Shown here: piece by piece, positions 21,734 through 22,551 of the stretch
How the letters are laid out: every line of letters starts with the position of its first letter
Numbering within the stretch: position 1 is the stretch's first letter
Source: Fimbriimonadaceae bacterium
Lineage (GTDB): Bacteria; Armatimonadota; Fimbriimonadia; Fimbriimonadales; Fimbriimonadaceae
DNA length: 64,000 bases
Assembly (NCBI GenBank): GCA_019454105.1
Contig: CP075364.1
Coordinates: 2,545,362-2,609,361, forward strand
Direction of reading: 5' to 3'
Notes under the pieces: model-generated
What the model was told of the DNA's origin: nothing
What the model saw: only the letters and a program-made list of their open reading frames with translations
Database searches by the model: none
Position numbers and translations under genes: made by a program

Positions 21734-21751
21734 GATAAACGTCTTGTGAAG

Positions 21752-21878
21752 TAGAAATGCCGAATCCGGCGCTGGCCGGAGCGGGGGAACCACACCTTGG
21801 GGTGAATCCGGGCCTGAGCCCGGTAGGCTACTTTCGGGCCGAATCCGTCAGCTCACCTCGCAGGCAAATCGAAAGAGC
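21752..21878 (+). promoter_or_regulatory. Cyclic-di-AMP riboswitch (ydaO/yuaA type)
   Basis: The conserved core of the ydaO-yuaA class is recognisable along its length. P1 left strand is TGCCGAATCC (21758). GGGGGAACC and TTGGGGTGAATCCG follow, then the pseudoknot and ligand block GTAGGCTACTTTCGGGCCG, then AATCCGTCAGCTCACCTCG, and the closing GCAGGCAAAT that pairs back to TGCC. This class binds c-di-AMP and usually turns genes off when the ligand is high. A 7-bp GC hairpin (21879-21897) without a T run follows, so the expression platform is unclear. It leads the unit starting at 21927. Confidence 0.93.
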
Positions 21879-21897
21879 GCGGCGCGTGGTGCGCCGC
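21879..21897 (+). other. Hairpin in the riboswitch expression platform
   Basis: Perfect stem GCGGCGC / GCGCCGC with a GTGGT loop, directly after the aptamer and 29 nt before the next start codon. Without a U tract it is not a textbook terminator; it may be Rho-linked or act on translation. Confidence 0.5.
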
Positions 21898-21926
21898 CCT
21901 CGGTAGCAAAGGCGATACGCGAGGAA

Positions 21927-22223
21927 ATGAGAACACTGGAAAAACACGAAACGACGAGCGTCGAAGCGGCGCTCCAGGCAGCTCGTTTGGCCCTCAGGGG
22001 CGAAGTCGATTTGACCGAGGCGGCACGGATCGTCAGCACGGCCCAGACCGACTTGGCCATCCGCGAGCACCGCTTGACACAGCTTCACGAACAAGCTATG
22101 GAATGCGGCCGCGCCTCCTTGGCGGCCCGGGTCAAGGCCCGTCTCAAGGAAGTCCAAAGACACCGGACGGTCTTGGCCGAATCCGCCGACACCGTCAGAC
22201 TAGCGGGGGCCCTCCGTGTCTGA
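21927..22223 (+). CDS. Small helical protein under c-di-AMP riboswitch, function unknown
   Basis: 98 residues, predicted almost entirely alpha-helical and charged (VEAALQAARLALRGEVDLTEAARIV, then AARVKARLKEVQRHRTVL), with a single Cys and no signal peptide or membrane segment. I do not recognise a family. GAGG is only 2 nt from the ATG, so the start is not certain. It is the first gene after the c-di-AMP riboswitch, and its end overlaps the next gene by 8 nt, so the two are probably co-translated. Confidence 0.6.
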   Translation: MRTLEKHETTSVEAALQAARLALRGEVDLTEAARIVSTAQTDLAIREHRLTQLHEQAMECGRASLAARVKARLKEVQRHRTVLAESADTVRLAGALRV

Positions 22224-22551
22224 AAACATGGAGGCCTTCCGCCATCTCGACGGTGGCGGAGCAGTCATCGAAAAGGAGTTCATCAAAGTCGTCTTTCAAC
22301 ATGGCGATCCGAAGGCCGTCGGGGTCAACGGGTGTCGGGTCGAGGACGTCATCGAAGTCGTGATCCAGAAGTTGCTGGACTTTCAGGGCCGAGCCCTCTC
22401 TTGCCAGGAGAACGCAGAGGCTCTCTACCATCTGGACATGGCCCAAGAAGCCCTGGTCAGACGTCGGCGGGCCCGAGAGCAACAGGGTGTCCTGGGGACG
22501 GCCGAGCAACACACTTCGGGAGCCACCGGGTTCGCTGAATCGCTGTCCTGA
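22216..22551 (+). CDS. Acb2/Tad1 hairpin-like protein (putative cyclic-nucleotide binder)
   Basis: 111 residues from a GTG (ATG at 22228 is an alternative). The central 70 residues carry a pattern I associate with the Acb2/Tad1 hairpin family: VVFQHGDPKAVGVNGCRVED, then VIQKLLDFQ, a C-x-E-N motif (SCQENAEALYHLDMAQEAL), and R-x-x-R-E-Q-Q-G-V-x-G-T. Acb2 proteins of phages bind cyclic di- and trinucleotides and sequester them. The assignment is from memory of the motif and is not verified by a search. Placement two genes after a c-di-AMP aptamer fits a nucleotide-binding role. Confidence 0.6.
   Translation: MSENMEAFRHLDGGGAVIEKEFIKVVFQHGDPKAVGVNGCRVEDVIEVVIQKLLDFQGRALSCQENAEALYHLDMAQEALVRRRRAREQQGVLGTAEQHTSGATGFAESLS

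Follow-up and report, generated by a model that had tools for sequence, protein, structure and literature searches.

Tad1 (Thoeris anti-defence 1) and Acb2 (anti-CBASS 2) are viral weapons against nucleotide-based immunity. In Bacillus subtilis, control of KtrAB/KimA by c-di-AMP operates at both the RNA and the protein level. The best-studied members of the c-di-AMP (ydaO/yuaA) riboswitch class, RF00379, are OFF switches. The usual targets of this class are potassium and amino acid transporters, wall remodelling proteins and osmotic-shock proteins (PMC7266159). The ligands known for Tad1 are gcADPR and cyclic trinucleotides; 3'3'-c-di-AMP is reportedly bound with high affinity by Acb2 and only weakly by Tad1, and Tad1 homologues cover a broader dinucleotide range (PMC12043709). 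The Acb2 of phage T4 binds 2'3'-c-di-AMP at about 62 nM (PMC12657218).

In the window, by which we mean the whole 64-kb stretch of DNA analysed here, a c-di-AMP riboswitch aptamer precedes two small genes, the second of which encodes a relative of Tad1. The features of the locus are as follows.

21748-21880, forward strand: c-di-AMP (ydaO/yuaA) riboswitch aptamer, RF00379 (cmscan, 91.9 bits, E 2.8e-20)
21881-21926, forward strand: leader between the aptamer and gene 1 (predicted fold of 21866-21960)
21927-22223, forward strand: gene 1, 98 aa, predicted three-helix bundle (AF2 single-sequence model, pLDDT 92)
22216-22551, forward strand: gene 2, 111 aa, chromosomal Tad1-like protein (PDB profile, Foldseek, PHROG 2428 and phage Tad1)

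The initial annotation had claimed a near-complete ydaO/yuaA aptamer directly upstream of two overlapping small genes, and both parts of this claim hold. When the entire window was scanned with cmscan (Infernal), the only RF00379 match was the one listed, which far exceeds the gathering score of 38, spans the whole model (positions 1-134) and has no non-standard pairs marked. The aptamer occupies a 5' leader position on the same strand, 46 nt before gene 1. Both open reading frames exist and overlap by 8 nt, and their G+C contents by codon position (0.68/0.49/0.73 for gene 1 and 0.71/0.38/0.71 for gene 2) are like those of the adjoining genes. The aptamer is predicted, from its sequence, to bind c-di-AMP and to change expression. 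A three-helix protein, as predicted, and a Tad1-like protein differ from the usual targets of c-di-AMP riboswitches, and the genes lie outside the target list of the class (PMC7266159), as had been noted. A second riboswitch of the same genome (G000:C1:2699159-2699293, L002) lies upstream of a small membrane-protein ORF, and ORFs of this type also follow a riboswitch in four other genomes (G030, G053, G029 and G021).

In the predicted fold of 21866-21960, the leader can form a G+C-rich hairpin at 21879-21897 and a second hairpin at 21898-21924, the 3' arm of which covers GAGG at 21921-21924, a ribosome-binding-like site before gene 1. In the global fold, CCUCGC of the aptamer (21856-21861) can pair with GCGAGG (21919-21924) over the same site. 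A scan for intrinsic terminators found none, from which we infer that the switch more probably acts on translation. The stability of the leader fold is no better than that of shuffled sequence (z-score not significant), and we therefore assign no direction to the switch.

Gene 2 is homologous to phage Tad1, which is a nearer relative of it than Acb2. The proteins of relatives, which mostly start with M(S/G)ENME, support its GTG start at 22216. The protein matches CmTad1 (PDB entry 8kbb) in a phmmer search at 4.5e-9, PHROG 2428 at 7e-19, and the annotated Tad1 of the Bacillus phage SBSphiJ7 with 43% identity over residues 25-98 (1e-7); a profile of 41 relatives searched against the PDB finds CmTad1 at 4.6e-18 and CbTad1 at about 6e-12. 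An AF2 monomer model of gene 2 built with 41 sequences (pLDDT 76) comprises two long helices, at 42-57 and 64-89, and a short beta-hairpin; the helices correspond to the long antiparallel pair at the C-terminus of the Tad1 fold. In a Foldseek search of the PDB with this model, each of the best 20 matches is a Tad1 (E 2e-5 and probability 1.00 for the best; TM 0.63, rmsd 1.6 Å), and its best matches in BFVD include phage proteins described as "Acb2/Tad1 hairpin domain-containing". No Acb2 chain appeared in the PDB profile search (E up to 1) or among the Foldseek matches listed. The earlier description of the second gene as Acb2-like therefore stands as regards membership of the Acb2/Tad1 hairpin group, but PDB profile and Foldseek both place the protein with Tad1 and not with Acb2. 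Its likeness to Acb2 lies in the hairpin domain grouping (PF24729, Acb2_Tad1_hairpin); gene 2 itself, contrary to what the initial annotation led one to look for, is not matched by this Pfam model up to E=1, and among its 41 relatives one is (3.5e-4). The family call thus rests on the PDB, PHROG and fold evidence.

Gene 2 shares with the known Tad1 proteins (CmTad1 8kbb, CbTad1 7uaw/8smd and SBSphiJ7 Tad1) the C-terminal hairpin motifs FQxG, NG..ED, C.EN, R...R and G..GT, at 35-43% identity. The N-terminal beta region is shorter than in SBSphiJ7 Tad1: where a four-stranded antiparallel beta-sheet is the N-terminal criterion for Tad1, the model has two short strands only, at 17-19 and 24-27. 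Residues invariant in 43 relatives include Q28, G30, N38, G39, C63, E65, N66, R83, R87, Q90 and H99. Of these, N66, R83 and R87 match in position N92, R109 and R113 of CbTad1, which we take to be ligand contacts; we regard this correspondence as a lead only.

Whereas Tad1 is a phage-borne Thoeris inhibitor, the gene 2 family is encoded by the host, is kept across two bacterial families and sometimes stands under a c-di-AMP riboswitch. Across the phylum, 67 of 291 genomes carry an orthologue, and every carrier belongs to one of two related families within a single order, with one genus contributing some 20 of the carriers; named relatives belong to Fimbriimonadaceae and other Armatimonadota. 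Within a set of 101 genomes of relatives, 43 carry an orthologue (48 genes in total). Identity of the orthologues to the protein of the window is 42-69%, and viral contigs hold distant relatives only (about 40-44%). In a tree of 62 rows, host and phage copies are split by one well-supported branch. Two further observations concern this distribution. In a record titled as a Methanoregulaceae archaeon (L127, JADZEW010000008.1), the Tad1-like gene is of the Fimbriimonadia type and nearly the same as the one in L126; the genome bin has probably been mislabelled. At nine loci from several genera (L100, L101, L111, L112, L115, L116, L119, L125 and L128), Tad1-like genes that have no riboswitch share one conserved neighbourhood that includes a response-regulator-like gene.

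The Tad1 family is best known from phages, and the window copy might accordingly be a prophage remnant, that is, a phage anti-defence gene that landed behind a riboswitch by chance. We consider this extremely improbable. The neighbours are ordinary chromosomal genes, including a CAP-domain protein (PF00188) and, named by reading their sequences, an excinuclease (uvrB-like) on the opposite strand, an ABC transporter pair and a dehydrogenase, and the orthologues across the two families group apart from phage Tad1. Context and distribution together largely rule out a prophage origin of this copy and agree with the host rather than phage setting first proposed for it.

The pairing of aptamer and Tad1-like gene recurs. 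With a pair defined as an aptamer at most 1 kb upstream on the same strand, the 107 riboswitches and 48 Tad1-like genes of the 101 genomes gave nine paired genes (in G000, G009, G010, G016, G023, G029, G038, G048 and G059), against 0.011 expected by random placement, and chance co-location is rejected. Another scan added four pairs (L094, L108, L121 and L122). The gene order of the window is thereby found again in related Armatimonadota, a check that the initial annotation had proposed. On the tree, the riboswitch-linked copies need four changes, that is, they occupy at least four places, and a single clade of linked copies is rejected (AU p 0.009); the linkage was therefore either gained or retained in several lineages. 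The Tad1-like gene of G010 and that of G038 come first, 46-48 nt after the aptamer. At the remaining linked loci, the aptamer and the Tad1-like gene are separated by one or two small helical proteins of about 90-128 aa. The riboswitches of this group also precede other genes: at L041, L050, L059, L063, L153, L155, L161, L164, L180 and other loci, a hisB-like gene (read as imidazoleglycerol-phosphate dehydratase) lies some 200-380 nt downstream of the aptamer, in many cases with a hisH-like gene behind it, and c-di-AMP may be tied to histidine synthesis in this group.

Gene 1 was initially described as a small unknown gene. It indeed has no Pfam, NCBIfam or PADLOC match, and we can refine the description to a predicted three-helix fold (modelled helices 3-23, 29-60 and 63-97) in a position equivalent to that of the small helical proteins of relatives. 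A fold search of the model against the PDB gave nothing significant (best E 0.13), and a likeness to the archaeal potassium-channel-related protein 2bko/1vct is not significant (E 0.16-0.49). Many of the 107 riboswitches precede small helical ORFs that a profile unites into a family (alignment A4) of roughly 90-130 aa, with no consistent Pfam match (for example, L066:1078-1392, L053:1659-1949 and L199:1023-1364). A search of the 101 genomes with this profile gave 34 matches, 31 of them directly behind a c-di-AMP riboswitch, a figure that carries some bias because the model was built from riboswitch-linked members. The three members without a riboswitch were rescanned at a relaxed threshold and showed no aptamer. 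Gene 1 resembles the A4 proteins in size, place and helical make-up, its own helices being those of the model. Profile-profile comparison does not detect it as a member of the family (hhalign probability 0.2%, like shuffled controls), and the A4 profile has no match in the window's own genome. Several small riboswitch-linked proteins (L148, L151, L203, L205, L212 and L204) and some Tad1-like proteins (L008, L026, L030, L129 and L131) have similar C-termini, such as PFMEYSS, PFMDYSS, FPTFSS, FPKFSS and EFSATGA, which may be a shared tail for docking or targeting.

The near-confinement of the A4 proteins to riboswitches, with most of the riboswitch-linked members lacking a Tad1-like gene, would fit a reading in which the riboswitch serves gene 1 only and the Tad1-like gene is a passenger. 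The order in G038 and G010, where no other gene intervenes, speaks against such a passenger, as do the linkage in at least four lineages and the 8-nt gene overlap in the window, and we judge this reading quite unlikely.

The reading that we favour, tentatively and at somewhat less than even confidence, is that of a c-di-AMP-regulon operon of the host, in which the riboswitch would control a predicted three-helix protein and a Tad1-type protein, a putative cyclic-nucleotide binder, as part of a feedback element. The host is able to make c-di-AMP, judging by its gene for a DAC-domain protein (diadenylate cyclase; PF02457, 6e-43), which a YbbR-like gene adjoins. The riboswitch in the 5' leader would control gene 1 and gene 2, probably at translation. 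Tad1 is a hexamer that binds gcADPR and/or cyclic oligonucleotides, and the Tad1-type protein would most likely keep a Tad1-like oligomer and bind a cyclic nucleotide, the most economical ligand being c-di-AMP or a close adenine-containing relative. Binding of c-di-AMP by the gene 2 product is plausible by analogy, because dinucleotide binding has been reported for Acb2 and Tad1 homologues. One messenger acting on both the RNA and a nucleotide-binding protein could then constitute feedback. If the switch is OFF, low c-di-AMP would yield more sponge, which would lower free c-di-AMP still further and sharpen the response; if it is ON, the sponge would buffer c-di-AMP. As with KtrAB/KimA, a single messenger would act on an mRNA leader and on the encoded protein; those systems are potassium transporters with other receptor domains, whereas gene 2 encodes a sponge-type relative and putative binder.

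Several pieces of evidence support the feedback operon: (i) the aptamer score; (ii) the homology to Tad1 by sequence, profile and fold; (iii) the recurrent linkage, at four or more separate points of the tree; (iv) the direct adjacency of aptamer and Tad1-like gene in G038 and G010; (v) the diadenylate cyclase of the host; and (vi) the invariance of N66, R83 and R87. Weighing against it are the report that the characterised Tad1 is a weak binder of c-di-AMP (PMC12043709), the 39 of 48 Tad1-like genes with no riboswitch within 1 kb, the shortened N-terminal beta part of a protein whose fold support comes from a monomer model, and a leader that folds no more stably than its shuffles.

The Tad1-like protein could instead soak up the alarm nucleotides of the host's own CBASS or TIR systems and so keep these from being activated by accident, with the riboswitch setting the threshold according to osmotic or c-di-AMP state. 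The host does have a complete type II CBASS operon (L229:6871-11035; G000:C1 about 730870-735034) with a CapV-like phospholipase, a CD-NTase, E1-E2 and JAB, as well as TIR proteins; this operon lies beside a TIR protein and a restriction system of type I. A CD-NTase matching the SMODS model is present in 10 of 43 carriers of the Tad1-like gene and in none of 26 non-carriers across the two families (p 0.01, kinship ignored), and gcADPR and cyclic trinucleotides, as known Tad1 ligands, are consistent with such a damper (PMC12043709). However, 33 of the 43 carriers lack a SMODS-model CD-NTase, and immune damping is therefore unlikely as the main function; among the nine riboswitch-linked genomes, only two have the enzyme, and no defence genes adjoin gene 2 at the window locus.

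It is similarly improbable, in our estimate, that nucleotide binding has been lost and that gene 2 acts with its three-helix partner as a structural or regulatory adaptor within the c-di-AMP regulon. The hairpin fold does recur in a protein deposited as structural from Lactococcus phage 1706 and in gp184 (PDB entry 8y6v), and most of the linked copies have a small helical protein as partner. Against loss of binding, the charged and polar residues of the hairpin are strongly conserved, with Q28, C63, E65, N66, R83, R87, Q90 and H99 invariant.

As far as could be found, the aptamer and the Tad1-like protein are each of a known kind and their combination in a host chromosome is new. We know of no description of such an RNA-plus-protein feedback module, and no link between Tad1 and riboswitches was found in the literature, our coverage of which was incomplete. 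The recurrent pairing with riboswitches in Fimbriimonadia suggests that the host has put a Tad1-type "sponge" to its own use. It is possible, though on balance doubtful, that this lineage made a phage anti-defence sponge (or its retained host ancestor) part of a c-di-AMP circuit of its own, in which one operon would combine an RNA that senses the messenger, a protein that binds it and a new three-helix partner. The chromosomal Tad1-like family offers a direct way to test whether sponges take part in normal second-messenger control as well, and it bears on the origin of the viral Tad1 and Acb2 proteins. The c-di-AMP regulon around it is largely unexplored, and one of its parts, a family of small helical proteins, is almost confined to the riboswitch in the 101 genomes searched.
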